Assembly: GCF_021917145.1 (NCBI RefSeq)
Contig: NW_025814038.1
Span: forward strand, 509,045-573,044
Source: Hypomesus transpacificus
Taxonomy: Eukaryota > Chordata > Actinopteri > Osmeriformes > Osmeridae
Direction of reading: 5' to 3'
DNA: 64,000 nucleotides
The notes under the pieces were generated by a model, which was not told the DNA's origin, did not search any database, and saw only the letters and a list, made by a program, of their open reading frames with translations. This document shows positions 28,231-58,277 of the stretch, piece after piece (position 1 is the first letter of the stretch; the number at the start of each line of letters is the position of its first letter). A program made the translations under genes and the position numbers.

Positions 28231-28275
<45 letters not shown>

Positions 28276-31200: not shown

Positions 31201-33726
31201 AAGTTCGGGGGCAGGGGGGTCAGTCTTCTTTTTGCGATTGAACGCAGACATGCAGAAACGACTGCAGAAGTCCTTAAGGTTGTTGTCCACCAAAACTCTG
31301 ACCACATTCCCAGTAGTCTCAATTTCCCTGCAAGGTTCAAGGGAAAAGGAAAACACAGTTTAATTCACCCCATCTAAAGAAACTTCAGAGCACTTGCTGG
31401 GAAGACGCACAAAACAACACAATAACAGATGAGGTACTTGAGGCACTGGTGGCAGGGCCGGGCCAGGACGGTGGGAGGCAGGAAGCCAGTGAGGCAGACG
31501 GTGGAGCAGAACAGCTGGGTGGAGCCCTTCTTCTGGAAGGCCGTCTGTCCCTTTAACAGCACCTTGGAGCAACCGCAGCACCTGATGTTAGCAGAGTTAC
31601 CGCCTCTGCCAGGGAGGGGCGGAGCCAGGGGAGGAGCCAGGGGAGGCTGGACCAATGGGGCTGGAGCCAAGCTCCTCCCAGGAACAAATATGGAGGGAGT
31701 GTGGGTGGTGGGACCTGCAACTGGAGGTAAAAACAAAGTAGGATGCTCAAAAGTAGCAGAAGGTAGCATCTAAGCCCACCCCTTTATTAGATAACCAGGT
31801 GAACAGAACATGCAGTGCTCAGACTGTGTGTGAGCACTGGTCTTCAGTCTCACCACTGGGGGCGCTGTACGAGGGCCCTCCTCCCACTGAGTACACAGAG
31901 CTGATCTTCAACTCATCCTGCAACACAAACAACACGCTCAGTAAAGTCTCTGACGCTCCCGGTCTAGTTTAGACCATCGAAGGCCTGAATGAGAGCCTGA
32001 CCTCCTGGTTCTCCAGCTCCTCTTTGACCTGTCTGCTGGAGGACTGAGGCAGCAGGGCTGCGTCGTAGTCCTCGTCTATCGGTTCATCCTTAATCTTGAT
32101 CAGTGGCGAAGTGGGGGCCTCGATTGCTATGGCACCACAGTCTGACCTCTGTAGTGACTAGGCAGAAGACAGTGATGTTGGTGACAGGCTTTTGGAAAAA
32201 CACTGAAATTATAATGCTATATTAGATACACATGCGTCGTTAATTGCTGAATTGTTCGTTCTAGTGAATACTTGAGATACAGGTGACACTCACCTCCACT
32301 TGGTGACACGGTGGATCTCCTCCTGGATAGTTCACAACAGCTCCATCTTGTGAGACACACAGAAAAGGAGAAATAAGATCCCTTGACCTAAACTCACAGC
32401 GTAGTTAGAGCGTGACAGACAAGACTCCTGGAATCAGTCTTACCGAGGCTGTCAGGGGAGGGAGTGGGACTGGAGAAGGCCGACACTCTCCTGTCCCCCA
32501 GCGTAGCTCTTCCCTCTGGGGTTTTCTCACTGGTCAGGGGGCCCCCCTGAACATCTCTCTGTCTGTCAGACGATTCATCGGTTAACCGGGCGCCAATCCT
32601 ATCCGTGTCTAGATCTGCCAGAGTGTCCATGGGCAGCGAAAACTGCCAGTCATCCTCCTCGTCGTCCACCCCAAAGACGGGAAGTCCGTCCAGCTCCTCC
32701 TCCAGGCTGCCCCCTCGATGCCCGGCCGCAAAGAACGGATCGCGGAGAGAGGCGTTGGTCTCTTCAGCCGCCTCGTCCGTCTCCTCTCTGACCTTCGCTG
32801 GACCTGCCTCGCGGTCGGCGCCGCCCGAGGAGGACGCCAAGAGGCCGGCGTCGTATCTGCCCAGCTTCATCACCTCATCGAAGGTCCTCATGATCTGGTG
32901 CTCATGCTGTAGGGAGACAATCCGACTGATGAATTATATCTCAAAATATGATATAGATAACTATGTTACTTTGTTGGGCTGATGGATATTATGAAAGATA
33001 TTTCCAACCATAATGCTGATTTAATGATAGTATGTTTTCTGAAAGTATTGTGTGTATGATTCACTTAGTACAAATGCATTATACTGTAATGACCACGACA
33101 TAGGAAGGACTCAGTGAGACTATGTCCGAACTCAACACACGCTTTATTTATTAGACTGGGCTGTTGTTCTGGCCACAGCCCACACCGCTAACTCCATACA
33201 GTGCAACACTCCACAATAATGCAACAGACAACTCGTCTTTTCAAGTCCCGTAACAAAATTGAGAGAGAGAAATTAAGACAGTAGCTCTAATTTCCCAACC
33301 TTCGCGGGATTATCCATCATCACCCCCAACCCTACTGTCTGCCCTGAAGTAACGAGTGCCTACAAACAATGAGAAACTATAATACAGGCTTGTTACAATA
33401 CGCTATAAGCACAAATGTGTTACCCTTGCGATTCTAGTAGGCCTATGCATTTTAAATACCAATTACCATAAATACCGGGTATAACAAACTTGAGATTTCA
33501 TGTTTTTGTAGATTGTAAAACAGCCTCTGCATGCTAGTTGACTGGATTATCGAGTCCAGATGTACAAGTACAGTGAGTCGAAACCCCAATGCACAACTAG
33601 CCAGGTAGCATGGCAAGCAATCAACATGACGGACCCCACCAACTGATTTTAATTGATAGTTAATTTAAATAATAATAATGTAGAAATGTTCACCAGAGAT
33701 CTTCCCGACTCCTCTGGTTCCGCCAT
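24105..33726 (-). CDS. zmym4: Zinc finger MYM-type protein 4, complete
   Basis: Nuclear MYM-type zinc-finger protein. I traced 27 coding exons (-): 33694-33726, 32444-32906, 32294-32346, 32002-32157, 31854-31917, 31438-31720, 31168-31327, 30848-31060, 30598-30748, 30271-30386, 29835-30161, 29224-29374, 28846-29036, 28403-28553, 27923-28045, 27636-27679, 27301-27442, 26960-27105, 26733-26868, 26421-26597, 26147-26232, 25889-26036, 25637-25788, 25416-25530, 24891-25127, 24661-24787, 24105-24306. All junctions are GT/AG, phases agree, and the sum is 1,448 residues (human 1,548). The start [11 protein letters not shown] resembles human MAERE-ESG. Family landmarks in order are a SUMO-type IKDEPIDED motif, nine or so MYM cysteine clusters (exons 6-14), ASTQTDA, the [12 protein letters not shown] tract, [25 protein letters not shown], and the DUF3504-type end ([42 protein letters not shown]). 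That order is specific to ZMYM4. Confidence 0.95.
24521..24558 (+). mobile_element. SINE tail fragment
   Basis: Only the 3' end of the main family, CTCTGGATAAGAGCGTCTGC then TAACTGACTAAAC, in a zmym4 intron. Confidence 0.75.
25128..25245. repeat. GA/CAGA microsatellite in zmym4 intron 24
   Basis: GAGA runs plus an (ACAG)n block. They form the polypyrimidine tract of the exon 25 acceptor on the minus strand. Confidence 0.9.
28163..28394 (-). mobile_element. tRNA-derived SINE (main family) with internal poly-C, abutting a zmym4 splice donor
   Basis: Tail, body and tRNA-like head in minus orientation. A run of about 43 C (28232-28274) interrupts the body. The head ends about eight bases from the exon 14 donor of zmym4 (exon end 28403). 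Confidence 0.9.
28603..28775 (-). mobile_element. tRNA-derived SINE (main family)
   Basis: Full-length minus copy in the intron between zmym4 exons 13 and 14. Confidence 0.9.
29421..29612 (-). mobile_element. tRNA-derived SINE (main family)
   Basis: Full-length minus copy between zmym4 exons 11 and 12, starting CATTTACATTCAGTCATTTA and ending GCTCAGCCACCTGACTCC. Confidence 0.9.
29618..29728. mobile_element. Composite SINE: plus-sense body fused to minus-sense head
   Basis: The left half is plus-sense (GGTTCAATTCCCGGCCATGC to CTTGGGCAAGGCACTTCACC). The right half is minus-sense (GGCCCAACTCCCTAACCGCT to CAGCCATCTGACCCC). It looks like two inverted fragments joined, immediately next to the full copy at 29421-29612. 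Confidence 0.7.
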
Positions 33727-33759: not shown

Positions 33760-33985
33760 CGAAAACTGTGACCAGAGCCTGTTTAAACATTCTCTGCTGT
33801 GACCTATCAGAAACTGTGACCACAGAGGGCGCTGCTGCACATGGTCTGCCCGTGCGTGGTAGACAGTGGAGGACAAAGAAGAGCGTCTGCGCAAACGGCG
33901 TAAACATTTATACATTACATCGGAGCCCGTCTATCTTATTAGACATTCTCTGATTACATCCACGGGTGCAAGCTGAATGATTATT
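33760..33985 (-). repeat. zmym4 promoter/5' segment with an inverted copy at 35825-36022
   Basis: Both contain, in opposite orientation, ACATTTATACATTACATCGG, GTCTATCTTATTAGACATTC and GTGGTCACAGTTTCTGAT. The copy lacks about 38 bases between two GTCACAG boxes and stops matching at CACCGGA, just before where the zmym4 start codon would be. Confidence 0.8.
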
Positions 33986-34384
33986 CGCGGTTTGTTGTTT
34001 CTTAGTTGTGATTATGTCATAGATTAACATTGGAAATGTAGTAAATGTTACTTTAATGATACAATAAAGCTCAAGTGATCAAAAAAACATTTACCTTAAT
34101 AGCCTTGTAATCAGTGGCAACCTTTATTTCAGCTCTGTTCTGCTGGCAAACAGTGCATTCTGATACCTATATAGACAAAGGCCTTTATTTATGGTGAGCT
34201 TTAAACAGGCTGATAGCTTGTGCTGTAACTATTAATGACTGGATGACCTTCTAATTAGGTAGCCTAATTAAAGTTAACATCTAATGAGAAACTTTTCACA
34301 TTCGAAATAGATAACGTTCCTTTTCTAAATTTCTGGTGCGCAATAGTCGACGCTTTTAAAAGTAAAGTTGCAAATTGAAATATG

Positions 34385-35470: not shown

Positions 35471-35824
35471 GAAATGGTGACCTCTGTGGTACTGGCTCTG
35501 TGAGGACCCCAAATAAGAAAACATGTGTCCAGATAAGTGTGAAGGGGTGACCACTGCAGTTCCAGTGGGGTCACATATTCTGACAATTTACACAATGTGC
35601 TGGTCCATTAAATATTTAGTTTTTTCTTTACAGTAGAATATGATTATTTAAATGTAGGTTTAGTGTAATGTTTTAGGTAGGTTATTACAAACTCTGCATG
35701 CAGTCACAGAGAAATACACGTTTAGAAACATTTAAGATAAACATATATTACTATGCATGATGTGGTTAATATGGTCTCCAGCGGTTTACTCTTTCTCAAA
35801 AGGAAGTAATAACAAACTGAGATT

Positions 35825-36022
35825 TATCATACAGCTTTCACCTGTGGATGTAATCAGAGAATGTCTAATAAGATAGACTGGCTCCGATGTAATGTATAAA
35901 TGTTTACATCGTTTGCGTAGACGCTCTTCTTTGCCCTCCATTGTCTACCACGCACGGGCAGACGATGTGCAGCAGCACCCTCTGTGGTCACAGTTTCTGA
36001 TGGGTCACAGCTTTCGGTGCAA
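35825..36022 (+). repeat. Inverted copy of the zmym4 promoter segment
   Basis: Matches 33760-33985 on the opposite strand. Its orientation would serve transcription to the right, toward the zmym4-derived gene, but its match ends before any start codon. The matching first exon lies 5 kb further on, at 41009. Confidence 0.75.
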
Positions 36023-36755: not shown

Positions 36756-37091
36756 GCTGAGTGATGAACTGCTGGCGGCTGTGGATGGTCCAGGTGCGAC
36801 CGGAGGAGGAACGGCCGGGAGAGCGATGCTTGGTACAGCTCCGCGCTGCAAGAGAAGCCGTGTGTCCGTGAACCCCGTCCGTCGGTCCATGTTGAAACTA
36901 TCTGGCGTGAAATGGTCACTGCAGAGGCGGCTGTTGGAGTTGATGCGAAGCTCTCCATCAGTGTGGCTCTTCACAAAATCAATCCACCTATTTTTCCTTT
37001 CCTCATCACTAGGAAATTGAAATAACGATGCAGCGCTGCTGTGGAAGTTCTTGCATCCTGGAAAGATGCAGGTCCGGGTGGAGGGAGACAT
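36756..37091 (-). CDS. THAP-domain protein, first exon only
   Basis: The start MSPSTRTCIFPGCKN begins a THAP zinc finger, a C2CH DNA-binding fold. Visible ligands and invariant residues are C8, C13, W36 (KNRWIDF), C57 and H60 (RLCSDHF), and the late GAVPS motif near residues 84-88. A Pro/Ala/Ser-rich linker follows. The exon can end at 36756 with an excellent donor (GTAAGTTC, phase 0, 112 codons); without splicing the frame runs only seven more codons to a stop at 36732. I could not find a second exon between here and zmym4, so partner domains are unknown. It could be a host THAP gene with distant exons, a truncated gene, or a remnant of a THAP-bearing transposase. Confidence 0.75.
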
Positions 37092-37888: not shown

Positions 37889-40428
37889 CTATTCTGCGCT
37901 CGGAGGCTGTGTGCTGGCGTGTGACTGATCGTCAGCGTTGCCCCGTGTGCCCGCGTCTCCCTCTGGTGGCGGCCGGTGGTAAAGCTTGTGCAGGTGCTCG
38001 GCGCTCCTATCAGCGTCTTCTGCCCCTTCGCAGCAGCGTCGCCACGCGTGGGGAACGGCGTCCACGCCGTAGTGTGCCCCAGCGATGGCTCCCGCCATGC
38101 ACGCGATGGTGTCTGTGTCCCCCCCTAGGGCCAGACTGTAGGCCATTGTCCTCTCCATGCCCCTGTAGTTCTCTGGAAGGCCCTCGCGGACCTCCAGACA
38201 GTGCAGGACACAGAAGATGGCCGTGGGGACAGAGTGCAGAGCAGCAATGCCGTTCCCTGTCGACAAGGGGAGGGAAAGCAAAGCGTGAGATGTTACCGAG
38301 ATTCTAATGCAGAGTGAATTTTCAGTGGGGTTTGAATGGATGTTCAAGTCTTTTATTGTCAGATGCACAGAACAACACAGGGTCAGACTGGGCACTGAAA
38401 TTATTAGAACAAGACAACGCAAAGGAACCTGGCATAAAATAACATAAGTACACATAACTTAGATTACATTACATCTATGATAAGCTGAAATATAGTAAAC
38501 CTCCTAAAATACAAATAATATAGTTAGTTCATAGTCAAGGCTGAATGGTCAAACTAACACATTTGCCAGTGTTATTTGTTTTCTAAGTGAGCCCACACTG
38601 ACCTAGCTCAGATATGACCTCCTCGATGCTCACTTGGTTCCTCTCCATCAGGTCCTTCACTCTGTGCAAACGGTCACAGAACGGAAACTCAGACTCCTTC
38701 AACCTGGGGAAACAAGACAAAGAAATGTTCACCCATCTCCATATACAATACAAAGAATTGTACGTGTGTAGTATATAATACATATAATCTGTGCCTGGTA
38801 CAATACAGACCGTTCCCCAACTACAGAAATACTGTTAGAACTATGTACTTCCCATCCTACATTCTTTAGGCACTATTTGTATGTTGCCTTGGATAAAAGG
38901 TGTCTTGTAAATAAATACAATATAAATGACTAAATACATATAAGGAAGTCTGACTGCCTGGCATTTGGCAGTTGGTCACGTTTGCAGTCGTCACCGAGGA
39001 AGCTAAAGGGAATGTTTTTCAGGCCTTGCAGAGTTTAGGCAGCTATCTAGCCTTTCACATATTGACATAGACCATCTAGGTGTTTTGAAGAAGCGTACAG
39101 TCTGGCATCCTGGCGAGACGCCTCTTCTGCCTCCACTTCCTCCATCTCCGTAATGAGCCTGTTGATGAACTTGTGTGGCCGGTCTAGCGCCCCCTGGAGG
39201 GACAGGTGCACTGCCAAGGCCTGCAGAACGGCTCCATTGTATCCCAGGGAACAGGAATGGGTCAACATGGCTCCAAGTCGAGCATACTATGTGAGGAAAG
39301 GAAGGGAGAGAGGGACAGAGAGAGAGAGACAGAGAGAGACAACATTATAAAGCCAACACTGTTTATTGAGAAATAAGGGGTGGGTGGATGTGAATTCTAA
39401 TGGAGAAACAGGATGTTGTTAAACAACTGTGTCATATGGAGTACTGTGCTGGGTTTCAAAGTAGCATTAGCAGTGCTGGGGAATACTTTTCACAAAATTT
39501 TCCGAGTAACAGTGCCTGTACCCCTAATCCCTCACCCGCTTGACGTCTCGATGGTCTCTGAAGGCCAGGGCGAAAGGGGCTGCCCTCATCGCCCCACCAT
39601 TCCCAAAGGAGCCGCGTCCGTTGAATTGAGCCCTGGCTGGCTGGAAGACGTCATTCAATTTTGGCACCCGCAACTTCTTCAACACCTGAATTACACCTGA
39701 ACCGTAGCCTCGCCCTGGAGATAAACTGTACTCCTTGGCGAAGCTGTTGACAAGAAAGCAGCCTTTTTCATTGTACATATTCCTTAGCCCTACATTACTG
39801 GCGTTAGGCCAATAATACAACTGGACGTTAAGTACAAACACAACAGGTTTTAGGTAATGGCCAAAATCCTGAGGACGGTTATCTCTAGCTACCTGTAGGC
39901 CATGTCTTGTTCGTCAAACCCTGCCCTGGTCAGCAAAGACTGCACAACACACCGTGTCATGGCTGTATCGTCACTGTACTGCAGAATACCTGAGGATGAC
40001 ATGACAGACAATATTGTCGTGTATTGTAAGTGTAGAGTAGCCTAATGTAGGCCTAACTAAATCGGTACTCAAAATACCTAGTTATATAGCTAGCTAGCTA
40101 ACTAGTTCCAGAAGAGGAGCGGAGTCACGTATGGCCTGAAACAGGTTCAAAAGCACCGTGAGACATTTGACTGAATCTAACGTAATTCGTACATAGTCTA
40201 CTAGGGAAAAGATTTTCGTGCAATTTAGATTTCACCGTCACCTTCGCCACGATCCTCATCCTGTAGTCCGTTCAGATGCTGCAAAACGCGATCCATGGGA
40301 ACCTCCTCTGCACCTTCGAACTCCCCACCAACACAATCTCCCAGGACCGCGCCAACCAGTGCACCGCGGAACCGAGCAATCGAGGCTGGTCCTCCAGCTC
40401 CAATAGCTCTTCCAGCCGTTACGGCCAT
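37889..40428 (-). CDS. adprs: ADP-ribosylserine hydrolase (ARH3)
   Basis: Removes ADP-ribose from serine on proteins and cleaves poly(ADP-ribose), in nucleus, cytosol and mitochondria. Six exons (-): 40242-40428, 39893-39989, 39536-39743, 39099-39286, 38603-38703, 37889-38256. Phases agree and give 382 residues (human 363). Catalytic landmarks are RFRGALVGAVLGDCVGG near the start, QYSDDTAMTR (first metal-binding Asp pair), ARAQFNGRGSFGNGGAMR, THSCSLGYNGA and LGGDTDTIACMAGAIAGA (second metal-binding Asp/Thr set). I chose the ATG at 40428 because the following residues match the family's usual start; an in-frame upstream ATG at 40494 would add 22 residues. It is divergently arranged with the zmym4-derived gene, whose start lies 580 bp away. 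Confidence 0.95.
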
Positions 40429-41008: not shown

Positions 41009-44000
41009 ATGGCGGGACTGGAAGAGTTTGGAATATCTGAGGTGAACATTTCTACCAATATATTTCCACATGTAATGAATACTTTTGTTATCAAGTCACA
41101 TTTTACACCTTGAATGCTGCTATGCTACCCGACTTTGAATATTGGGGTTGCCACACTAATATACATACACTTTTGCTAAGCATGCTGGCATGCACAGACT
41201 TGCAGAGGTACAGGAGACTCACGCATTTCAACTATTTCACACGCATAGTGTTCCTCACGCTGAGAATTAAGCGATAACTTGTTGCGCTAACTATATACAA
41301 TTAACGGACGAGGCGCAGGCATACGGAGGTAAATTTTCTGCCCAGTTGAGAGCTGTTTCGAGTTACAGAGTTAAATGCCACCTACTAGCCAATCAAAAAC
41401 CTCATCGACATAGTTCTGGTTGTTTGGTCAATGGAGAACCCTGCACAAACCCTTCACTATTTCCATCAGCCCAACCAGGGACGGATCTAGAAAAATATTT
41501 ATGGGGTTGCAAAAGGGTGGCAGGAGATTTTGAGGGGTGGTACCCTGTGGCAAAAGTGTGTGAGATAAAAATGAATGAACTAAAGGCTGTGCAACATGTA
41601 TGAACAGTCAGTGAACACTGAAATTAATTTGAGGATTATAGGTCACATGACCAAAAACGATTGAAGTTTGAAGATTTATTTTGAATTAAAGAAATTCAAA
41701 AATGTATAACCTGAGATGAAAATTAACCAAATGAAGGCTGTGCAGCATGAATGTATACATCTTCAACAGTTTAACATTATTTTGACGCTCCTAGTTCATG
41801 TTGTTGAAAAGCTCTTGTCTTTGGAAATTTGTAATTCGTTGATGGTCCTTAAACATACGAGTTTAGGCAGCCAAAAGCATTAGCTAAGCAGCTGGTCGTA
41901 GCAGTGCTAAACACCAGTTAAAATAACACAATAGCCTACTGGGCGTCATGTTGAATATCAAACTTCAAACTAACTTTACCACGGTCATCTTTGTTGTTGC
42001 TTTCCCAAAGCATTCACAAGTTAACGTTATTAACCTCAATTCAACAGGAAAAGTAACGTTGCAACTTAGCCTTGCACTTTTCTAATTATTCTTAGTCGTT
42101 AATAGATAATTGCTTAACACCTCATTCCTCCAGTGTGGTCTGCTGTCCGTGCCAACAATTACTTCCTTGAGTTGGAGCTTTCTATGGTCAGGTCACGCCT
42201 TCCTTGTGTTCAAATTAAAGCAACTTCGGTGGCGGTGTGGGGAGGGTGGATGGAGTTGTCTCGTGCTGCATTCACTTGCATTCGGATATTAGAAATTCGC
42301 TCTCGCAAATGTCTGACTTGGCGGAGTGGTGACGGTGGTTGGAGTCGTCTAGTGGTTGGAGTCGTCTAGTGGTTGGAGTCGTGTAGTGGTTGGAGTCGTC
42401 TAGTGGTTGGAGTCGTCTAGTGCTGCATTCACTTGCAGTGGGATATTAGAAATTCGCTCTTGCAAATGTCCGATGAGCCACAACTTTTCTTTGTTTTCAA
42501 AGCTGCCAACAGGGGTGGCAGCCGGAGTGGCAAGGCTATTTTTAGGGTGGCAATTGCCACCCCATGCCAGCCCGGTAGATCTGCCCCTGAGCCCAACAGA
42601 GTAACACAGGTATCTATTCAGAGACATATGTCATCAGTCCGATTGTCTCTCAACTACATGGACAGCAGATGACAAGGACCTTGGTCGTGACCGTGATGAA
42701 GCCAGCGGGTCACCGCGCTGTCCTCTCGAGGTCTCCCTTGGCTACGCTGGGGGACAGGAGAGTGTCGGCCTTCTCCAGTCCCACTCCCTCCCCTGACAGC
42801 CTCGGTAAGACTGATTCCAGGAGTCTTGTCTGTCACGCTCTAACTACGCTGTGACTGTGAGTTTAGGTCAAGGGATCTTATTTCTCCTTTTCTGTGTGTC
42901 TCACAAGATGGAGCTGTTGTGAACTATCCAGGAGGAGGAGATCCACCGTGTCACCAAGTGGAGGTGAGTGTCACCTGTATCTCAAGTATTCACTAGAACG
43001 AACAATTCAGCAATTAACGACGCATGTGTATCTAATATAGTATTATCATTTCAGTGTTTTTCCAAAAGCCTCTCACCACAGAGGTCAGACTGTGGTGGCA
43101 TCCCATTAGAGGTCCCCACATCGCCACTGATCAACATTAAGGATGAACCGATAGACGAGGACTACGACGCAGCCCTGCTGCCTCAGTCCTCCAGCAGACA
43201 GGTCAAAGAGGAGCTGGAGAACCAGGAGGTCAGGCTCTCATTCAGGCCTTCAATGGTCTAAACTAGACCGGGAGCGTCAGAGACTTTACTGAGCGTGTTG
43301 TTTGTTTTGCAGGATGAGTTTAGGATCAGCTCTGTGTACTCAGTGGGAGGAGGGCCGTCGTACAGCGCCCCCTGTGGTGAGAGTGAAGACCAGCGCTCAC
43401 ACAGTCTGAGCACTGCAAGTTCTGTTCAACCTGGTTATCCAATAGAGGGGTGGGCTTAAATGGTACCTTATGCTACTTTTGAGCATCGAACTTTGTTTCT
43501 ACATCCAGTTGAAGGTCCCACCACCCACACTCCCTCCATATTTGTTCCTGGGAGGAGCTTGGCTCCAGCCACATTGTTCCAGCCTCCCTCTCCTCCCCTG
43601 GCTCTGCCCCCCCCTGGTAGAGGCGGTAGCTCTGCTAACATCAGTTGCAGCGGCTGCTCCAAGGTGCTGTTAAAGGGACAGACGGCCTTCCAGAAGAAGG
43701 GCTCCCTCCAGCTGTTCTGCTCCACCGTCTGCCTCACTGGCTTCCTGCCTCCCACCGTCCCGGCCCGGCCCTGCCACCAGTGCCTCAAGTACCTCATCTG
43801 TTATTGTTTATTCTTATTTTGAGATGATCCAACTTATGATGTTGTGCTTTTAAAAGAGCAGGATGCAAATCAAAGCAGTTGACTCATATTAACACTGATG
43901 TATCTGATTGTGTGTGTAGCACAGAATTCTTATGGCTCAAGATCTGTCCATTTTGGTGTCTTCTAGTGGCCAAAAATATTTTGTGTTGTTTTTGTGTCTT

Positions 44001-47000
44001 GCAAGCTATTGCTCTCATTTGCGTTATATGGGTAAATTAAACCGTTTTTTCTTTGCCCCTAAACCTTGCAGGGAAATTGATAACCCTATGAATGTGCCCA
44101 GTGTTGTGGTGGACAAAAACCTTCTAGACTTCTGCAGCCCTGTCTGCCTGTTTGCGTTCAATTTCCAAGAGAAGACTGACCCCCCTGGCCCCGAACTTCC
44201 TTTCTGCAGCATTTGCAAGAAGTCCAACGAGGTAAAGACTTCTTCTAAACACCCTCACCAACACACTCTCCCATCGCAACACAAACCTGCCCTCACCCCC
44301 CTGTTCCTCATTCAGGTTCTACATGAGGTAATCTATCACGGTGAGGTCCATAAACTGTGCAGCGACTACTGTTTCTTCACATGGCGCTGCAACCGCAACC
44401 TGGCCATAAACTTCTGTGAGAGCTGTGGCATGTACTGCAGCAGTAAAGGAAGTGGATGCCAGAACTTGATCATAGGAGACGTCAACCTGAGGTTCTGCAG
44501 TCCCACCTGCATCAGCACCTATAAACAGGTAGCGATGCATCTCCGGCGGTCCAGAAGACAGATTTCTGAATGGTTGTAGATGCTAGCTCTCTAACCCTGA
44601 TCACCCCTTCTCTGACTTCCCCTGTAGACCTGCTCCAAGCTGATGAAGTGTAGTCACTGTGGTAACGAGGCGATGGTGTCCACCATGTTGGTGAGCAACG
44701 ACCCCTTGGGCAAGGTTAAACTGTACTGCAGCTCCACCTGTGTCAGCTACAGCCGGCCTCCACAACACATTCTCTCTGGTATGCACAGTTCCTCAGCCAA
44801 GGGTTACGGATAGGATATGGGGAGCAAAATGGCGATCTTAAATTTCTGCCTTGTGGTATTGCATTCATATTTAATTAAACTGACGGATGTTTGTCTTTTT
44901 AAACGGATGAGAACTCTGTGCTTCTGTGTGACGACTGTTGTATTTGGTGATGTCGAAACAGAAACATAACTGTCTTTCCCTGCCCTCAGGCACTTCCACC
45001 AATCCCCTGGTTCCTCCTCAGCCTGACTTTCCGGGGACAGGCTCCTCCCCCTTAGGCACGTCCACCAATCCCCTGGCTCCTCCTCAGCCTGACCTGCCAG
45101 GGACAGGCTCCTCCCCCTGTGGCCTCTCTCCGCTCTCCTCCTCCTGGCCAGCTGCCCCTGGTCACCCTGACGCTCCCAGCCAGACCTCCGCAGCGCCCTG
45201 TGCGTCCACCCCAGGCTCGTCCAGACCGTACGAGCAGCCACAGCAGGGCCTCACCCCCCTCTCTGCCTCACGCTTCACTGGGCCTATCACGCTAGATAAC
45301 AGCTGCTTCCAGGAACCCTCCTCCAGGCCTGAACTCTCGCATAAGGTACTGATGATCTCCGATTACCTGGAACTAACTTCTTAATAAGTTGATCCTCGAT
45401 TGATGTATTCTCGAACACACTGAACGAATGTGGTGTAGTTTTCTGCGGTTGTGTTTTCATGACCAAATCGTCAGAATAATTCATTTCTAGGTTTGTAAAC
45501 ATTTTGGTGTGGATGTGTGCAGGACAGCACTGAGACAGACGCTGTGGCTCATCACTGGGACATGAAGAACAAGGCCATCATGTGTCGACCTTTCACACAC
45601 AGCCAGGAGACACTGTGCAACCTCCCAACCCAGACCACACACACACCAGCAGGTACAAGAACACACGCCACTTCCACTGGCCACACGTTATACTGTACAC
45701 CGTTAACTCATCATATATCCAGTGTTAATTCAGCATCCTGGGCGTGGACATGCCAGCAGGCTGTCTTGCAGTCTCCCGCTAGTCAGGAGGACGTCTTGGT
45801 AGTTTATGTTCAGGTTTAGTCCTAACTTTAGTTCTCTATGTCCACAGGCATCTCTGGGTGTAGTTTCACCACCACTTTAAACGAGGAGAAGGTGAAAGTG
45901 GTGATACTTCCCGTCCCTGTGCCAGTCTTCATACCCGTGCCGATGAACATGTACTCCCAGTACACGCCTGTTCCCATGCCGATGCCCATTCCTGTATGTT
46001 GTGCCGGTGTGATGCTTCACAATGTCACTGATGCCATCTGGTGACGCTGGACACGTTAGTGAGGTGTATGTTTTTGTCTGCCAGGTCCCTGTGCCTGTGG
46101 TGTTACCGTCTGCCCCGAGTGGCTCACAGTCCAAGGACACACATGACCCACTCGTCCAATCACAGGGCATCGCTGAGGAGGTTGAGGAAGTTGAGAAGGG
46201 CAAACCTGTCTCCCATGGAGGTAAGGAAAACTAGTTTCACCCACTTAGGTTTGAATGGTCAGTCAGGATCATTTCCTCCTCTGGGTTTACATATGTACAT
46301 AGTGTGTAAATAGGTGTATGTGTACATAGTGTGTGTATTCTGTTTGTCGTTTCAGACCAGGGGAGTACTTACAGTGGAGGTTTGGAGTCTGAGGCGATCT
46401 CCACCCCTCTAAACTGGGCAGAGGAATCCAACCCTGCGTCCAGCAGCCAGCGAGGGGGGGGTCCAGTGGCTGTGGACCCCCCCAGCACATCTGAGCCGGG
46501 GGCCATGGACTTGGAGGCTGACATCCCCACTGGTGAGATGGAGGTGCCGTTAACTCCAGTTCTTGCTTGGCTTGTACTGTAATATTTTTCTCGTAAGCTA
46601 CAGTTTTATAAGCTGTCTAGTCATGTGCCTCTCCCAAACAGCAGTTAGGTAGGACACTGGTAATGCCAGCATGTATTGTTGTCCGTTGTACCAACTGTGG
46701 GAGCTGGACTCTGGTTGCAGAGCGGTGTGACCCTTCTGAGAGAGCTGTCGTCAGGAAGCTGGCTGGATGTAAACGACCTAGAGAAGGTTTCTCTCCCACG
46801 GAGGTAAATTAGGGTCATAAAGATTTGCAAACGTAAAACCTGTAAACTGTAAACAAAGATTTGTATTTTCGAAACCCTATTTTTTTGAAGCTCTGAAAAT
46901 TTAGCGAGTTTAGAAAAGATTAACAAGACTGTTAGGTTTCTGTTAGTTTCAAATGCATGCATATCAATGTGTGTACTGAAACAAATGTCTTTGTGAATTT

Positions 47001-47314
47001 GCAGTGCATTGATAGACAACAGGTGGCTACTCATCCAAAGAGAGCGGTAAGTTTTGCTCCTTCAAATGTTTACGGTAAAAAATACAGACAAAAGCATGCT
47101 ATTGGTTTTAAGAAATGCGTAAATAAATGTATACCTGTAATGATGTTCTAAAAAGCGTGTTTGTGCTGTGCACATGCAGCGTGTCTGCGAACAACAGGTA
47201 ACAGATCAAGCAACGGCTCTACTAACACTACGAGAACAAATGGTTGCAAAGAAAGCGGTGAGTTAATATCATACAGTATATTCTGTATTTCAAACATTTT
47301 TGTGTGCAAATATA

Positions 47315-47395
<81 letters not shown>

Positions 47396-48372
47396 ATGTT
47401 TGTTTTTTTATATATATTTTTTATATACAGGCCACTGATATCAGCCATATCAATACACCAATAACCATCGATGCGGTGGAACTTAAGAAAGCAGAGTTGA
47501 GGAATCAGCTGAAGAGGCAGTCAAGGGAGGACCCGTCTCCGAGGGCAGAGGTGCAGCTGGCAACAAACAAACTGATAAAGACATTGGAAGAGACCAGGAA
47601 AGCGTTGGACGACAGCCAATTGACAATGGAGGAGACCTGGACCGCGCTAGGTGAGATCCAGGAAGAAGCATCAACGCAGAATCAGGAAGAAGCATCGACC
47701 GAGAACCAGGAAGAAGCATCGACCGAGAACCAGGAAGAAGCATCGACCGAGAACCAGGAAGAAGCATCGACCGAGATCCAGGAAGAAGCATCGACCGAGT
47801 TGCAGGAAGAAGCATCGACCGAGATCCAGGAAGAAGCATCGATCGAGAACCAGGAAGAAGCATCGACCGAGATGCAGGAAGAAGCATCGACCGAGAACCA
47901 GGAAGAAGCATCGACCGAGATGCAGGAAGAAGCATCGACCGAGAACCAGGAACATAATGGAATGACGATTCAACCGCCGCCGATCAGTCCGGACGGTAGT
48001 GATCCACGTACAGAGCAGTGCTCCCCCTTAGTTGGAAGAAACGTCCATCCAGACATTGATATTCCTGTTCTGACCCCTGACGTGGAACAATTGATCAGCA
48101 AGCTTAGTTGGGGCTGCAGTGACCAGTACTCCTCTCTTCTCTTCCGTTTGGCAGTAACAGAAGAAAAATATAACGAGTGGGCAATGAAAACCGACTGGGA
48201 TGGTTCGAGTGGCAAATGGGCATTGCCAATCAACCTCCGACAGTTCCTGATGGATGCAGTTAGGAACAAGTTTCCAACAATGAATGATAAAGAGGGAATA
48301 CATGTGAAAAACGGAGTGAATGAATACTTGCGTATACCTATGAAGACTGGTGCCCGTGCTATACATATCTAG
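41009..48372 (+). CDS. Chimeric zmym4-derived gene with new coiled, repeat and BEN-like C terminus
   Basis: Inverted partial copy of zmym4 spliced to new exons. Exons (+): 41009-41041, 42669-42804, 42908-42963, 43082-43228 (or from 43055), 43313-43376, 43509-43788, 44072-44231, 44316-44528, 44628-44778, 44990-45345, 45523-45652, 45848-45993, 46085-46220, 46356-46532, 46721-46803, 47005-47046, 47180-47257, 47431-48372. All have GT/AG sites, agreeing phases and open frames, giving about 1,109 residues. Exons 1-15 follow zmym4 exons 1-9, a fused 10/11, and 17-21. MYM clusters from zmym4 exons 6-9 remain ([30 protein letters not shown]). Exons 10 and 12-16 and the DUF3504-type end are lost. The new part has a coiled segment (LKKAELRNQLKRQ, LIKTLEETRKALDD), twelve EEASTENQ-type repeats and a terminal domain with LLFRLAVTEEKYNEW, KWALPINLRQFLMDAV and GVNEYLR, which I read tentatively as BEN-like. 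An ATG at 46669 could give a shorter product in the same frame. Confidence 0.72.
41476..42589. mobile_element. Non-autonomous hAT element, 1,114 bp, with 8-bp target duplication
   Basis: Begins CAGGGACGGATCTAG and ends with the inverse, CGGTAGATCTGCCCCTG. The flanking octamers AGCCCAAC (41468-41475 and 42590-42597) are identical. Inside are a GGTGGCA-rich end region and tandem copies of AGTGGTTGGAGTCGTCT (about 42329-42422). No transposase frame is seen. It sits in the first intron of the chimeric gene. Confidence 0.92.
42329..42422. repeat. 17-bp tandem repeat inside the hAT element
   Basis: About five copies of AGTGGTTGGAGTCGTCT or its variant ending GTGT. Confidence 0.85.
46669..46720 (+). 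other. Open intron-20 sequence upstream of exon 15 of the chimera
   Basis: An ATG at 46669 opens a frame ([19 protein letters not shown]) that runs without a stop into the following exon in the correct phase. zmym4 has the same property on the other strand at 26283-26233. It could serve an alternative start or arise by chance. Confidence 0.3.
47327..47391. repeat. (TA)n microsatellite
   Basis: About 32 TA units in the 173-bp intron just before the last exon of the chimeric gene, preceded by a short TG run. It lies 40 bp upstream of that exon's acceptor. Confidence 0.95.
47662..47949 (+). repeat. Coding minisatellite, 12 units of 24 bp
   Basis: Twelve contiguous 24-bp units starting GAAGAAGCATC, each coding Glu-Glu-Ala-Ser-(Thr/Ile)-(Glu/Gln)-X-Gln, where X is Asn, Ile, Leu or Met. 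No unit has an indel, so the frame is kept throughout. It lies in the last exon of the chimeric gene. Confidence 0.95.
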
Positions 48373-49020
48373 GCTACTTGTAAAGATGCAATATTGTCTG
48401 ACACTACACAGCCATTCCTGCCCCAAAAATCTGTATTTTTGATAGACCAAACATGACAACCAACAGGTAGATTCAATTATTTGATACTTATATTTTATTT
48501 TTAACTGATTGTAAAGTATTGGCTCACTGAAGGGGAGCTGTGAAATAAAGCCAAGAGCCACTGCCTGTTGTGAACTACCGCTTAATTTACAGCTGTTAGC
48601 TTAGTTCCGATCAACTCATGTGATTGGACAAGAGGCATTCCATGAAAGCCGTGTTAATATTCTCGTGAGATATTGCTTAACAACGCAAACTACTGTAGGT
48701 AGAATAACAGCATTGTTTACCATTAAAACAAAAAACATGAAGTGTTTAAGGACATGATGTCGGATTAAATACATTGGACGACTAAATGTTACGTTAGCAA
48801 TACCAAAAAATAAATTGGCTTGTTCGTTGTAATTTCCCCAAAATAGGTGAGTCGGCTAGAAAAGTTAGCTAGCACTACCAGTACAATAGACTAGCAGCAG
48901 CTTCACACTTACAGTACCCTGACAAGAACTACTGAAACATTTATGTAGTTATCACAGTAATTTGCACTTTACAAAAACGTTGGTTCATAATTTTGCATGT
49001 ATCTTGTCACCAGTCAGACC
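48373..49020. other. 3' UTR of the chimeric gene and upstream region of the R-SNARE locus
   Basis: A canonical AATAAA lies at 48544-48549, 172 bases after the stop codon. The rest is AT-rich with no exons. Confidence 0.6.
48544..48549 (+). terminator. Polyadenylation signal of the chimeric gene
   Basis: AATAAA on the sense strand shortly after the stop at 48372, followed by TG/GT-rich sequence at about 48566-48572. A usable signal supports this being an expressed gene. Confidence 0.6.
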
Positions 49021-51736: not shown

Positions 51737-53390
51737 ACCTGGATTCAGAAGTCCAAAACGGGTTCAACCTGTTAGGCAGCATGGGGATGTTTCAGTACGT
51801 CATGTAAATAAGCAATAGTCAAATTACCTTGTTCTTTTTAAAGATGTGTGACATGACATGTTCAGTCTGTGGTCATGTAATGATACATTTCATAATTTAA
51901 AGCTGTGTGCATTCTTTAAATTTTATGTTTTATTTTGTATAACTTTGTAAAACCATCCCTTTGTACACCGCTATGCTAATCTGTCACTATTCTAATGCAC
52001 TAGTGTTCAGTGGAATACATTTGCAGGACTCAAAAGGGTAGAGGAGTCGTTGATCAAGACTCAATTCAAGGATCCAGAGACACATTCCAAGACCTCTTCA
52101 GTGAATTTTATAGTTTTATTGTTTTGAATGCTTTGCAGGATGTCTGGCATGGTGTGTATACTTTATCCCATAGCATATCAAAATATAACTAATAAGAGAG
52201 GAATAATCTATATATGCATTTCTGTATAACTTTCTTTCAATTTGTTATTTTTTAAATAATTAGTCATTAATACAATTATAATAATACCAATATAAAATGT
52301 CTATGATAATGACCAAACCGATCTTGGGTTCACTTGAGCACTTGACAAAAAGGACACAAAGAACATCTGAATCATTGAATAATGAATCAATCCTCAAATA
52401 CATCTGTTGTGATAGTTTCTTTTAACACGTGACAAATATGATGGTTAATATGAAGCTATAAGATGCAACCAAAACAAAAACAACATTGAATAAAAGTCGA
52501 TTCGAACGGTAGATCTACTTAATAATGCTGGATGTTTCCCATAATCTCTCCGTCATGTTATCTGGATACTTCCAAGTCTTCCGCCAATGCTCCATCGAAA
52601 GACTGCTTCCAATCACTTCATAGCCTGCAGAAAACAAACAAGCCAAACAGTCTATTATGACGGTACAGTTGAAGAAAACAAAAACAATATAAAATAGGAA
52701 TCCCCCGTCTTTAATTCATTATGAAAAGACAATAAAACAATGACTTTAACATTTAGTGGGTCCATAAGCTACAAATCCTGAGGTGCGATAAGAATCAAAA
52801 CGCAACTACAAAATCAATAAGGAAGCCTTCAATAGGTAAAAAATATATATATATACAAGTTAAGTTAAGCATTACATGCAAATTTCCGGATACATTGTAC
52901 TTCCATGTTTTTCCAAAAGATTGAGAAGAGAATTTGTTAGAGGAAAATTAAAAATGTATAAAAGAGAAGCCTTTTCCCACCGCTGTCAGTAACACAAACA
53001 GTAAACAAGTACAAAAGTAACGCATTTCTCCATCAGTGGCATCCAAGTACAAACCAGGTTTAAGCTCATGGACTACTGGTTACTACGGCTACGAGGGCTA
53101 AATAAAGAAAGCAAGCATTACAGGTAAGATTAGAAACTGGAAAGTCCAGAGAAGAAGTATCCTTTAAAAAGTAAATAGTTATTTTCTCTGTCGTATTTTA
53201 CAATTACTTGTGGGGGTAGTAGGGGCCTGTAAAAAACGACATTTAATTTACATTAAACATTAATTTACGAGTATTTAAAATATTTACAAAAAACGAAACA
53301 ATCGAAGGAATTAAATGTCAAGCAAGATGACAAAGATGGGTATATCCCACTTTGTTTACGGTGCTGATACAGGATGTTGGAAGACCATAC
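51737..53390. other. 3' UTRs of the VAMP gene and of hnrnpd
   Basis: The two genes converge here. Long AT-rich stretches without coding exons. TTTATT at about 52108-52113 is an inverse AATAAA that could serve hnrnpd. Where each transcript ends cannot be seen. Confidence 0.5.
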
Positions 53391-53491
53391 CAAACGGCAG
53401 CATTCGAGAGCGTACGCCTCTCGTGCCCAGTCCGCATTGAGCGGGCCTGAGAGTATCGTGTAGTCAGCTCATCGCCTGCAAGGAACCTCCG
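53391..53491 (-). other. hnrnpd: Conserved 3'-UTR cassette exon of hnrnpd
   Basis: On the minus strand CTTGTTTGTACCTGCCAG precedes a 101-base exon that ends at GTATGGTCT. The acceptor region and the donor-side CATACC/TTGGAAGA blocks are shared with 58174-58277 in hnrnpdl. It lies downstream of the hnrnpd stop codon. Confidence 0.7.
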
Positions 53492-53859
53492 CTGGCAGGT
53501 ACAAACAAGGTATATGTCAGTTAGGAGACAACAATTCTTTTTTCTTATACTTTCTTATACTTTTAGTTTTTGACATCCATTAACTCTCATAGCAATACTT
53601 TACCTGTTAACTTTACAGTTACAAAATGGTGCAAAAGAGACAGCCGAAAGCCAGCTCTTAGAATAATCACCACAAAGGCTGTTGCCCTCTATGTTACCAT
53701 TACAGTAAAGCACTTCAGGGTGCTGTGAAAAACTTTGAAAGGGATTATTATTCATGTTAATTATGGTACAAAGAAGTAATACCACTATGTTGTTTTTTCG
53801 ATTTTAGGTTTGTGGTGAGAGAGATTCAGTTACATACCTGTTTGTACAAATTCTTCACA

Positions 53860-56406
53860 TCAGTATGGTTTGTAACTGTTTTGGTTGGAACCTCGTCTCA
53901 GGGCCTTGCCATATCCACCTTGTTGATCTTAAAATATCACACACACACAGACAAGTAAGAAGTGTTTAGGTATATAAATAGATGGTCCAACACCATGACA
54001 GCAACATCAAATACTAAATAGAGGGGTCAGATGGCTGAGCGGTTAGGGAGTCGGGCTTTTAATCAATAGGTTGTTGGTTCGATTCCCAGCCATGCAAAAT
54101 GACGTTGTGTCCTTGGGCAAGGCACTTCACCCTACTTGCCTTGGGGACAATGTCCCTGTACTTAATGTAAGTCGCTCTGGATAAGAGCGTCTGCTAAATG
54201 ACTAAATGTAAATAATCAATAACTGAAAATAACACAAGGGAGTAGTGTGGTATTACACAATCAATACATTAATTTAGTGTGCTATCGTACATGGTATTAC
54301 ATACTGGTGTAGTCACCATATCCATAGTTGTATCCAGAATAGTCATAGCCACCATATCCTCCGTAGCTTTGGTTATTGTATCCATAGTTGCCATATCCTT
54401 GGTTCCAATAGTTTCCATAACCCTGGTTCCAATTTTGACTAGGCCCTGCAATACAAACTTTCTTATAACACTAGAATAACCCACCGAACATCATAAAGAA
54501 TACATACAAATCATCATTAGTGAACTAATAGCTGTAAATGTTCATATAAACACACTATGTATTAATTGTTAAATATGAATGTAAAAAGGTTTGTGTAATT
54601 TCATGGTGAATCTCTCTGAGCGTATACCCCTGCCTCGAGATCTGGGGGAATAGCCGTCCCTCCCTCCCCAGTGCTGTTGCATCTGGTACTGCTCTTTGGA
54701 CATGGCCACCTTGATTTCACACTGACAAAAACAAACATGGAGTCGGAGAGTGAATGAAGAAGCTGTTTGGTTTCAGAACAGCTTTGATATGCTGATTGCG
54801 GAAAAACTTTTTCTTTTCTTTTTTTGTTACCTTGCTCAGTCCTATATTGTGATATTTCTTCAGCATGATATTTTTCACTGAGTCTTCGTCTTTGAAGGTT
54901 ATGAAACAGAAGCCACGTCTTTTATTCGTTTTGTTTTCCATGGGTAATTCAATAGACTCCAACTGTCAACAAGAACAACTGTGACTGCTAGGCATCTATG
55001 GAGTATGGGTGTAGTTAAAGTTAAATATAGTAAATAAGTATACTTAAATAATAGTTTAAAGTCGAATTTACATGACATTTACATTTAAAAATACTTTGAT
55101 GCACCTGTATAGTAATTTCATTACTGCCAGAATTTAATGAAAATAAATATGTACGAAAACGGTGAAGGTTAGACAGCCTACCTCTCCAAATGTACAAAAG
55201 TACTCTTTGATTTTCTCCTCTGGAGTGTCCGGAGAGAGACCGCCAACAAATATCTTCATTATCGGTTCCTTGCCCTTCATTGCCTTGGCCTTCTTTGGGT
55301 CGATGACTTTCCCATTCAGCTTGTGTTCCTTCTGTTGAGTGACCTGGAGGTGTCATAGTAACCCCATAGAAGACAGTCACTCCCTATTACACCTAATACA
55401 ACCCTTTAAAACCACACGGGATCACAAATATAGAGAAATATTGAATATTGAGAGACGATACCTTATCAACACTCTCAGCCTCTTTAAACAACACGAAGCC
55501 AAAGCCTCTGGATCGCCCTGTCATTGGGTCCAGCTTAAGTGTGCAGTCTACCACCTCGCCAAACTTAGAGAAGTAATCTTTCAAATCCTTCTTGGTTGTG
55601 TCCCAGCTGAGTCCACCAACAAACATTTTCCTGTTTAGAGGTCAGAGTGGCATCGTTAATTATGAAACAATGGGCACCTATTCAATAGTCTACTGCACTT
55701 ATTTACTTACATTTTCCTTCAACAGAAATTTTTCTAATCTTTTCATAGCAGCACATTAGCTAATACGACCAAGGTAGCAACAAACTAACCAATTAAGTAC
55801 AAACTATACAGCACTGCTGTATCATTGCATGCATTATTGCATGTATTAGAACTTCCTTTTTACGTTTTTACATTGCATATTTCAAGAGTTGTTTTCGAAT
55901 TCACTTTCCGTAAATGACGATCCAAGTCATTCAGTCTGTATATCAACACTGAATTCCGATAGACTACCGCTAGACATTCCATGCACAATTCTCAACTCCA
56001 CTGGCTATGGTGTATTTTTAATTACGAATCCAGCGTCACTTATAAATGGCCATGATGATAGCCTGCTGGAATCCAGCTTCATCATCATTCTCCTGCAAAT
56101 TCCACAGGAAACATCATTTGCAGGTTTAGTCTCGGTAACGTTCACTCGCTCTCGCTCTAGGCTATTTCTAGTGCTTTATTTTCACGGTTTGTTACAGCTA
56201 TAAGCTAGCCACCATCAAATGTCGCACCCCTCATCCTCTTCGTTTTTGCTTGCATCAATCTTTGATCCCTCGGACTCTGCTCCTCCTCCCTGGCCCTTGC
56301 TGCCCTCTGCAATTGTCGGCATCTGTTCCTCACTGCTTGCCTCTCCGTCTTCTTCCATCATTGTCAACAGAGTTGGATCATCACCTATTTCAAGGTCCTC
56401 CGACAT
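53860..56406 (-). CDS. hnrnpd: Heterogeneous nuclear ribonucleoprotein D (AUF1)
   Basis: AU-rich-element binding protein controlling mRNA decay and splicing. Seven coding exons (-): 56228-56406, 55462-55630, 55182-55343, 54831-54962, 54628-54721, 54305-54445, 53860-53927, giving 314 residues. Two RRMs: [16 protein letters not shown] with [11 protein letters not shown], and [16 protein letters not shown] with [10 protein letters not shown]. The acidic N terminus ends [13 protein letters not shown], an HNRNPD signature. Next comes [13 protein letters not shown], then a Tyr/Gly/Asn-rich tail ([20 protein letters not shown]) and the family ending NQNSYKPY. The exon 1 donor is the weak GTGCGA. Exon 6 read through meets a stop two codons after its donor. 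A strong donor (GTATGTAA) lies 22 bases past the stop codon, so the 3' UTR is spliced. Confidence 0.95.
54026..54214 (+). mobile_element. tRNA-derived SINE (main family), best preserved copy
   Basis: Head GTCAGATGGCTGAGCGGTTA with clean A and B boxes (GGTTCGATTCCC), body and tail complete. It lies in the last coding intron of hnrnpd, in antisense orientation to the gene. It appears the youngest copy in the window. Confidence 0.93.
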
Positions 56407-58173
56407 TTTAGTTTCGAACGAATAGCTAATGTGGAGACTTGTCAAGTTGTGAGTGATGGTAATGGAGCTTGCTAGCTGAAGAGATAACGATTAAAGCACA
56501 GGTTTCCCAACTCGTTTGGATGTTAGCTAGCTAGACTTGTTAGCTAGTGGAGTTAATTAGCTATTAGCTAGCTACTCTGCTTCCTCTCAACCTGACTGCA
56601 GTGTTTTTTCCCGGTGTGGTTTCGCTCTTAATTACGTTCAGCTAAGCAAACAGCCAGTATGCCAACAACTACCACTTAAAAAAAACAGGTTTCCTTTTTA
56701 GTTATTTGGCCAGTTATCCTTAAGGCAAACACAAATTTGCTAGCCAACTTTGCATGGGTCACACACGTTTCGAGGCCCGGGGTAACCCAGGGGGCGATGT
56801 TCTCATCTGTTGTCGGTGGATCCAGTCCAAATGTGGGAATCCCACCCATCCGTGCTATCTCGAGACTGAAATCCACTTTAGTTTCATATGCGTCGTGCTT
56901 GGTGGGTGGAACTGGTTGCGAGTTGAGAAGCGTGCGTAATGTAGCTCGACGGCCACTCACATTTGTCTCTGGAAAATGTCTCCCGCTGAAATTATTATTA
57001 TTATTTTTTTACATACCGTACACTGAAATTGTACAAATGTTAATAATGAGTCATGGTCTGGACAGCTTTGCACTCTCTTTATTAATCCCTTAGCAGAAAC
57101 GGCCAAATATCTATAGAGACAAAATGCTGAAAATTAGGGTATAAAGACACACATCTTGACAAAATCTAGACTTAAAGCCTCATAAGAATACAAAGTGAAG
57201 AAGAGGGTGAAGAACACGGGGAAAAATATTGTGTGGGGTAACTCACTATTTACAAAAATCAGACACAATGAAATGAAGGTCTGTTAAAATCATGAGCTGA
57301 TCTCAGGACAGGATTCCCCCAAGCTGCCACCAGGGTATAGGGTCATTCTCCGGCCAGCCAGCCTGTCTGCAAACAAGGAAACGAGACAGAAATTTACTCA
57401 TTCTGGACCACTTCAAAAACTCCGAACCGAAAAAAAGAACACGTCCATGACTCAATGTTTAACTTCTTGTGCTGTCAACTTTAAACTATTAAGTTTGTTT
57501 ATTTTCTCCGTTCCGTTTTAAAGATCATATGTACGACTTGCAGCCTCATGCACTCCAGCTCACAGTTCCCAAATTGTAACAGCTTCAAAATATTCTGGAT
57601 TAGTCAATAATCCATTTTAAAAGGAGCAAACTAAATTACAGTATAGGGCAGGCCCCTCGCTGTACCTCAGTCCTCAAATGGAGGATCGATTTGAAGAAAA
57701 TGTGTTCGATTCACACTGGCTTTTAACAGGGAATTGAACGTGTCAGCCTTCAATAGTGTTATAAAGCTGGTTTACATATGATCTTTAACACCTATGTTTA
57801 AAAAAAGGTTTGTTGTTTATCAATTGTAGTTCTCTAAGGGCTATAAAGAAAAAGCAAGCATCATGAGTTTAAGCGATTTAGGAGGGGGGGTCATTTTAGA
57901 AAAAAACAAATGAAAACACTGAAGCTCCAGAACTGAAACACAAAACCACTAAAATAAAAAGAGAATACACAACAATTCGTTAATTACAACTCTTTAAAAG
58001 GTTTCGTTTTATGTAATTCCTGTAAAAAACCCATTTCAGACAATTGTTAAAGGAAACACTGAACAACTTAAAAAAAAAAAAAAGAAATAATAAAAAAAAC
58101 AAGGTCATTTTCCTTTTGTCTTTTATGTTTCTTTCTGTTTATCGCTGGTACAGGAAGTTGGAAGAGACCATAC
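56407..58173. other. hnrnpd upstream region and hnrnpdl 3' UTR
   Basis: hnrnpd promoter and 5' UTR next to 56406. An unexplained 94-codon open frame lies at 56676-56960 (-). The remainder is AT-rich hnrnpdl 3' UTR without coding exons. Confidence 0.45.
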
Positions 58174-58277
58174 CACAGGACAGCGTTTTCTTGTGCATGC
58201 CGTGCTCTCTGCCCGCTATGTGCGACGCCCAGAGAATGTCATGGTCAGGTGACACACGGCCTGCAATGAAGTCCCCG
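58174..58277 (-). other. hnrnpdl: Conserved 3'-UTR cassette exon of hnrnpdl
   Basis: A 104-base exon with acceptor TTGTTTGTACCTGCCAG and donor TGTG|GTATGGTC, downstream of the hnrnpdl stop codon. Flanks and edges match the hnrnpd exon at 53391-53491 far better than the exon interiors do. Confidence 0.7.

Follow-up and report, generated by a model that had tools for sequence, protein, structure and literature searches.

A predicted zmym4 paralogue with a replaced C-terminal half in two smelt genera

We describe a predicted gene in a 64,000-nucleotide stretch of the Hypomesus transpacificus genome (assembly GCF_021917145.1, contig NW_025814038.1, positions 509,045 to 573,044 of the forward strand; the whole stretch is hereafter the window, and all coordinates refer to it). 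The gene lies at 41009-48372 on the plus strand and joins a zmym4-derived front part to a tail without a zmym4 match; we refer to it as the chimera. Judged from sequence, it is probably a protein-coding zmym4 paralogue, present in at least two smelt genera, whose C-terminal half with the QRICH1 and DUF3504 domains has been replaced by three new exons. When the sequence was re-read, its 18 exons spliced to 3360 nucleotides encoding 1119 residues and a stop codon, with zero internal stops and agreeing phases, and GT/AG splice sites were present at 17 of 17 introns, in agreement with a first-pass annotation made from the letters alone. That annotation had proposed an intact chimera of an inverted zmym4 copy and new C-terminal exons: an Osmerus protein with the same junction upholds this architecture, but a simple recent inverted copy does not fit the gene conversion described below.

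The Osmerus orthologue and the gene model

The best match to chimera residues 100-450 in a protein search (120 of 219 matches listed) is a 1086-residue protein of Osmerus eperlanus, deposited as 'zinc finger MYM-type protein 4-like isoform X1'; it is an orthologue of the chimera from end to end. Its start, MAGLEEFGRSEQM, is close to that of the chimera, and the alignment shows the same gap in exon 2 and the absence of zmym4 exons 12-16. It also spans the same junction (GFSPTE, with IDRQ one residue further on), for which the first-pass annotation had proposed a search in other fish, and ends in the same C-terminal domain. The two proteins are identical at 926 of 1045 aligned residues, with 80-96% identity per exon in exons 1-15 and 79-90% in exons 16-18. 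Pfam searches found neither QRICH1 nor DUF3504 in the Osmerus protein (E up to 1) or in the 1119-residue chimera (E up to 10). The gene is thus already recorded publicly, via its Osmerus orthologue, under an uninformative name.

Compared with the Hypomesus chimera, the Osmerus protein is longer by about 8 residues in exon 16 and by 3 in exon 15, has 4 rather than 12.5 units of an 8-residue repeat, and keeps the exon 10 MYM finger, in which 37 of 37 residues are the same as in zmym4. The loss of this finger therefore most likely occurred on the Hypomesus side and was not part of the original chimera, a correction to the losses listed by the first-pass annotation.

Because Osmerus has the same chimera, the gene is older than the Osmerus-Hypomesus split, dated to 24.1 (21.4-26.9) million years ago in PMC12083275. 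In a tree of exons 4-9, from which rows with at least 30% gaps were left out, the two chimeras group together (support 0.69) and then with Hypomesus zmym4 (0.999), and this group falls within a clade that also holds eight salmonid and pike-relative sequences. By these comparisons, the duplication is one on the smelt line that preceded the Osmerus-Hypomesus split; zebrafish has ZMYM4a and ZMYM4b (PMC3212892).

The parent-lineage gene and conversion partner, zmym4, lies at 24105-33726 on the minus strand, with 27 exons in our model. From exon 2 on, over 1434 residues, its protein equals the deposited H. transpacificus one except for three residues at one splice acceptor. Four main blocks of the chimera align with zmym4 in inverted orientation, at 96.3, 92.3, 91.2 and 91.3% identity. 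The chimera retains the exon order and phases of zmym4 for exons 1-9 and 17-21 and for a portion of exon 11; exons 10, 12-16 and 22-27 are absent. All exon length differences are in frame, as first proposed, with two corrections to the individual values: exon 2 is shorter by 324 nucleotides rather than 327 (its acceptor is shifted), and a difference of -3 in chimera exon 15 against zmym4 exon 21 was added to those of +3 in exon 3, -3 in exon 6 and -12 in chimera exon 11 against zmym4 exon 17. Exon 4 is 27 nucleotides longer with the start at 43055 used here and of equal length with an alternative start at 43082, both in frame. Two domain types exceed their Pfam cut-offs in the chimera: MYM (zf-FCS) fingers, in 5 stretches (44.9 bits, cut-off 22.4), and TRASH_ZMYM4 (30.9 bits, cut-off 27). 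The chimera retains 26 of the 27 cysteine columns that are conserved in other fish, and the one exception is common to the Osmerus chimera.

Exon by exon, the zmym4-derived part begins with MAGLEEFGISE in exon 1 (41009-41041), a paralogue of zmym4 exon 1 with 82% identity over 57 bases to 33736-33680; the Osmerus protein begins MAGLEEFGRSE. Exon 2 (42666-42804) is zmym4 exon 2 with the shared loss, and exon 3 (42908-42963) falls in a tract that is mismatch-free against zmym4, small indels aside. The spliced model then gives exon 4 (43055-43228) and exon 5 (43313-43376), followed by the MYM zinc finger of exon 6 (43509-43788), where residues 201-234 form the best zf-FCS stretch. Exon 7 (44072-44231) is a diverged tract: its protein agrees with the Osmerus chimera at 46 of 53 residues and with zmym4 at 33 of 53. 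Exon 8 (44316-44528) is a mosaic by comparison with zmym4 and Osmerus, and exon 9 (44628-44778), with the TRASH_ZMYM4 stretch, is the same as zmym4 at 151 of 151 bases. Exon 10 (44990-45345) is fused from the acceptor of zmym4 exon 10 and the body of zmym4 exon 11; it starts in phase 1 at 44990, as claimed at first pass, and contains a 66-nucleotide tandem repeat, with a second in-frame acceptor at 45056. Exon 11 (45523-45652) corresponds to zmym4 exon 17, and model comparison equates exons 12 (45848-45993), 13 (46085-46220) and 14 (46356-46532) with zmym4 exons 18, 19 and 20.

Exon 15 (46721-46803) is zmym4 exon 21, near whose 3' end zmym4 similarity stops: this is the chimeric junction, where SPTE followed by IDRQ is also read in Osmerus. 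The three exons beyond it are new and have counterparts in the Osmerus protein. Exons 16 (47005-47046; without a zmym4 match) and 17 (47180-47257) are short; exon 18 (47431-48372) holds a charged stretch, a 24-nucleotide repeat at 47653-47952, a C-terminal domain at 48037-48369 that is 94% the same in Osmerus, and the stop codon. The polyadenylation signal of the first-pass annotation is there, as AATAAA at 48544-48549.

Gene conversion and constraint

The zmym4-derived part is a patchwork of near-identical and diverged tracts. Its longest mismatch-free runs against zmym4 extend over 291 and 291 aligned sites, introns included and small indels aside, against a maximum of 251 in 5000 shuffles (copy 42741-46796, without 43789-43990, 44995-45060 and 45370-45500). 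Beside these lie tracts of 74-85% identity, among them exon 7 at 82.5% and exon 1 at 82%, and intron 1 is unalignable. Across the 11 introns 2-5, 7-9 and 11-14 (introns 1, 6, 10 and 15 align poorly or not at all and were set aside), 37 of 1406 sites differ from zmym4 (2.6%); this is far below what is expected of paralogues that predate a split with a synonymous divergence (Ks) of 0.15, the value given for O. eperlanus and H. nipponensis (PMC12083275), and we therefore invoke conversion. Residues shared by the two chimeras and residues shared with zmym4 are likewise clustered, in 27 runs where 50.4 are expected (0 of 20000 shuffles as low). Of the 50 chimera-shared sites, 17 have the zmym4 state as the most frequent one in other fish, 11 have the chimeras' state and 22 have neither. 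As far as aligned sequence can speak, the pattern shows the zmym4-derived part to be an old paralogue that has been patchily homogenised with zmym4 by gene conversion, with a new tail that has no conversion partner. Exon 7 differs from zmym4 at 28 of 160 sites (about 24 nonsynonymous and 4 synonymous) next to an intron that is 98.8% identical; it is possibly a conversion-free patch, or possibly an exon selected to differ.

The comparison with Osmerus also allows the reading frame to be set against neutral drift, simulated in 4000 runs at 0.15 changes per site, the published genome-wide Ks (PMC12083275). For the whole frame, 14.5 stops and 27.6% amino-acid change are expected and none of the 4000 runs was free of stops, whereas no stop and 119 changes in 1045 residues (11.4%) are observed. 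For exons 16-18 the expected change is 28.1%, with 21.8% in the lowest run, and 30 of 289 residues (10.4%) have changed; without the repeat the expectation is 27.9%, the lowest run 21.5% and the observation 27 of 256. Neutral drift is rejected for the whole frame and for the new exons, and the first-pass contention that the frame is more intact than a decaying pseudogene would be holds good.

The remaining tests of constraint are mixed. When divergence is scaled to the observed amino-acid change, the whole frame has a probability of 0.0015 of staying free of stops. For exons 16-18 on the Hypomesus half of the branch, the probability is 0.04-0.05. We also asked where the copy and Osmerus differ, using column conservation in 118 of the 120 listed proteins (the Osmerus chimera was kept apart, and the deposited Hypomesus protein was replaced by window zmym4). 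With exons 1, 2, 16-18 and copy residues 426-447 dropped, a reduction made after the test on all rows had been run, differences avoid columns that are at least 95% conserved (6 of 164 against 55 of 484, p 0.003) and at least 90% conserved (14 of 240 against 47 of 408, p 0.018). For MYM exons 6-9, in the test on all rows, the counts are 5 of 123 against 20 of 139 (p 0.005).

Several points weigh against a constrained, functional gene. The simulated rate is not this locus's own. With scaling to the observed change, exons 16-18 would stay free of stops with a probability of 0.10, and the changes in exons 17-18 are not significantly conservative (p 0.15). On the full set of rows, the 90% column test falls short of significance (27 of 277 against 54 of 444, p 0.33); changes private to the Hypomesus copy are likewise not significantly depleted at conserved columns (p 0.18 and 0.08). 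The stretch of exon 10 that matches the next MYM has lost zinc-finger residues, and the tail searches given below found no homologue outside Osmerus, so that the role of the tail is inferred. Finally, the ratio of nonsynonymous to synonymous change (dN/dS) between chimera and zmym4, which the first-pass annotation had named as a check with values near 1 and frame loss speaking against a gene, is 0.68 over 763 codons, 1.69 in exon 7 and 0.27 in exon 8: the overall and exon 7 values are in part unfavourable, and no loss of frame was seen. We give this ratio little weight, because in an old paralogue patched by gene conversion the converted tracts are reset; exons 1-2 and the head of exon 10 are, moreover, misaligned in it.

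The new tail and competing explanations

The first-pass annotation had placed a coiled segment, repeats and a BEN-like domain in the new exons; an in-frame repeat was found, and for the BEN-like domain there is a weak fold hint in place of a Pfam match. No Pfam family rises above cut-off in the tail, and neither a BEN nor a transposase family was matched by the full protein or by a 225-residue tail from which most of the repeat was excluded (E up to 10; HMMER filters may hide weak BEN matches); the Osmerus protein gave no BEN match either (E up to 1). Modelled from a single sequence, the last 111 residues form five helices, with a mean predicted local distance difference test score (pLDDT) of 57.8, and a second model built from two sequences was worse and less helical. 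The best Foldseek match of this low-confidence structure is the BEN domain of BEND6 (E 1.8), with that of NACC1 lower, and none is significant. No BEN chain appeared among the 50 VIA-align entries displayed, mostly globins, a result that excludes nothing, and sequence searches of the PDB gave one chance match at E 1.3 and then none. In a typical BEN domain the last of five helices reads DNA, and in BANP such a domain occurs together with a coiled coil (PMC11472053). The chimera resembles this layout in that a charged, possibly coiled stretch precedes a small C-terminal domain, for which one model of low confidence gives five helices; it differs in having no Pfam BEN match and no significant structural match. 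We regard a BEN-like C-terminal domain as a reasonable lead and no more. The 8-residue repeat numbers 12.5 units here and 4 in Osmerus, its 24-nucleotide period holding the frame, and is likely to serve as a length-variable marker.

Where the tail came from bears on how the gene is read. It may be a domesticated mobile-element or viral domain and not a captured host gene, an origin that we consider possible though unlikely. The hAT-derived tails of ZMYM1, ZMYM5 and ZMYM6 set a precedent within the family (PMC3212892), and no host homologue was recognised in the tail searches: among proteins of 172-548 residues none of 36 candidates was accepted at E 0.001, and with Osmerus tail residues 800-1086 the only one of 4151 candidates accepted among proteins of 597-1900 residues was the query itself. 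Neither search returned a Hypomesus protein with the chimera's tail. Against such an origin, the Pfam matches include no transposon domain, the tail extends over three exons, and a close-range search of viral contigs confirmed no relative (2 stretches fitted the pattern); of 68 inverted repeats around the tail, the 25 displayed all fall within a GT/TA simple repeat.

A second alternative grants that the gene is coding and expressed, and makes it a mere competitor of zmym4, a dominant negative acting through its MYM fingers with a dispensable tail. Parts of the MYM exons are indeed held zmym4-like by conversion, but change in the tail is as slow as elsewhere in the protein, at 27 of 256 non-repeat residues against the roughly 28% of the neutral simulation, and we think this explanation improbable. 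More doubtful still is a reading as two genes joined by models, in which a zmym4 copy is cut short near 46803 and exons 16-18 form a small gene of their own. It is true that zmym4 similarity stops at the junction and that the splice across it is a predicted one; yet the donor phase of exon 15 fits exon 16 with no intervening stop, the Osmerus protein reads across the same point, and none of the 36 candidates of 172-548 residues was accepted as a free-standing tail relative.

The least probable of these alternatives is that zmym4 was duplicated in inverted orientation only recently and that the copy has not yet had time to decay, in effect a pseudogene in waiting. The closeness of the 11 introns to zmym4, the two 291-site runs, the lost exons and the exon 10 MYM loss confined to Hypomesus would all suit it, but the diverged tracts and unalignable intron 1 speak of an old split, conversion accounts better for the near-identical tracts, and the chimera's presence in Osmerus contradicts it outright, unless the Osmerus protein has been wrongly assigned or modelled. 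A decaying unprocessed pseudogene is likewise rejected, there being no stop in 1119 codons and the neutral model having failed against Osmerus at the published Ks, although the weaker tests are mixed.

Neighbourhood and proposed function

Between zmym4 and the chimera, at 37889-39913 on the minus strand, two open frames match ADP-ribosylglycohydrolase (PF03747), and the inverted copy is therefore not directly beside its parent. In place of window exon 1 (33726), the deposited Hypomesus zmym4 protein starts with a THAP domain; QRICH1 and DUF3504 are both present in it (Pfam). This THAP first exon lies at 36756-37091 (minus strand), and a THAP domain occurs in 4 among the 120 matches listed, so the alternative start may be wider in teleosts. 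A 216-nucleotide inverted repeat of 90% identity (33796-34011 and 35796-36011) lies between the two alternative first exons. Repeats in the zmym4 introns at 28159-29684, which we take to resemble a tRNA-derived short interspersed element, recur at 5149-5340, 20004-20181 and 54018-54213; the part of zmym4 concerned is absent from the chimera, and a repeat comparison of the window found no match inside it. Further out, four segments at 53363-55634 recur in the same order and strand at 58144-61023, about 5 kb apart and at 71-76% identity, which suggests a tandemly duplicated gene, and an open frame at 20230-20709 (minus strand) that matches the S-adenosylmethionine synthetase C-terminal domain (PF02773) is probably an exon of a gene for that enzyme. 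Ten further open frames, including those tested in the duplicated segments at 53363-61023, gave no Pfam match at E 0.01.

ZMYM3 and ZMYM2 are also known as ZNF261 and ZNF198. The MYM fingers of ZNF261 and ZNF198 bind SUMO (PMC4136804), DUF3504 stems from a Crypton recombinase (PMC3212892), and knock-down of Zmym4 changes early cranial gene expression in embryos (PMC10579616). The chimera shares with ZMYM4 the N-terminal region, the zf-FCS and TRASH_ZMYM4 stretches and the order and phases of the kept exons, and differs from it in lacking QRICH1 and DUF3504 and in having exons 16-18. By analogy with other ZMYM proteins, it would act in the nucleus as a regulator, binding SUMO or co-repressor partners through its MYM fingers. 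Loss of DUF3504 would take away zmym4's own C-terminal module; the new tail may instead self-associate, its C-terminal domain providing a different contact with DNA or protein. The chimera could then link zmym4's partners to new targets set by the tail, or compete with zmym4.

The closest precedent is that of mammalian ZMYM1 and ZMYM6: both are eutherian, lie in ZMYM synteny blocks, and combine an N-terminal part like that of ZMYM4 with a hAT-derived tail and no DUF3504, while ZMYM5 has a ZMYM2-like N-terminal part and another module, a hAT tail, where DUF3504 is missing (PMC3212892). The chimera likewise has a ZMYM N-terminal half that has lost DUF3504 and gained another module in its place; the tails of the mammalian genes derive from hAT transposases, whereas that of the chimera has no Pfam match and would have arisen independently in smelts. 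The first-pass annotation knew of no described gene with this layout, and among open-licence PubMed Central papers we found none on a smelt zmym4 chimera, nor on ZMYM4 with a BEN domain in such a gene, although the Osmerus orthologue was already in public databases.

We propose, with arguments for and against that we judge evenly balanced, that the chimera is a smelt-specific transcription regulator in which the ancient Crypton-derived tail of ZMYM4 was swapped for an orphan domain without a detected relative, the MYM half still being homogenised with zmym4 by conversion and the tail evolving alone. The route taken by ZMYM1 and ZMYM6 would then have been followed once more, independently, with parent and product side by side. 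Such a gene is easily overlooked, as so close a match to zmym4 could lead to its being set aside as a fragment of a duplicate. The pair offers a test of conversion that keeps one half of a chimera parent-like while the other half diverges. If the proposal is true, ZMYM genes would repeatedly swap their C-termini, for hAT tails in mammals and for an orphan domain here, and the MYM half would be a reusable adaptor.

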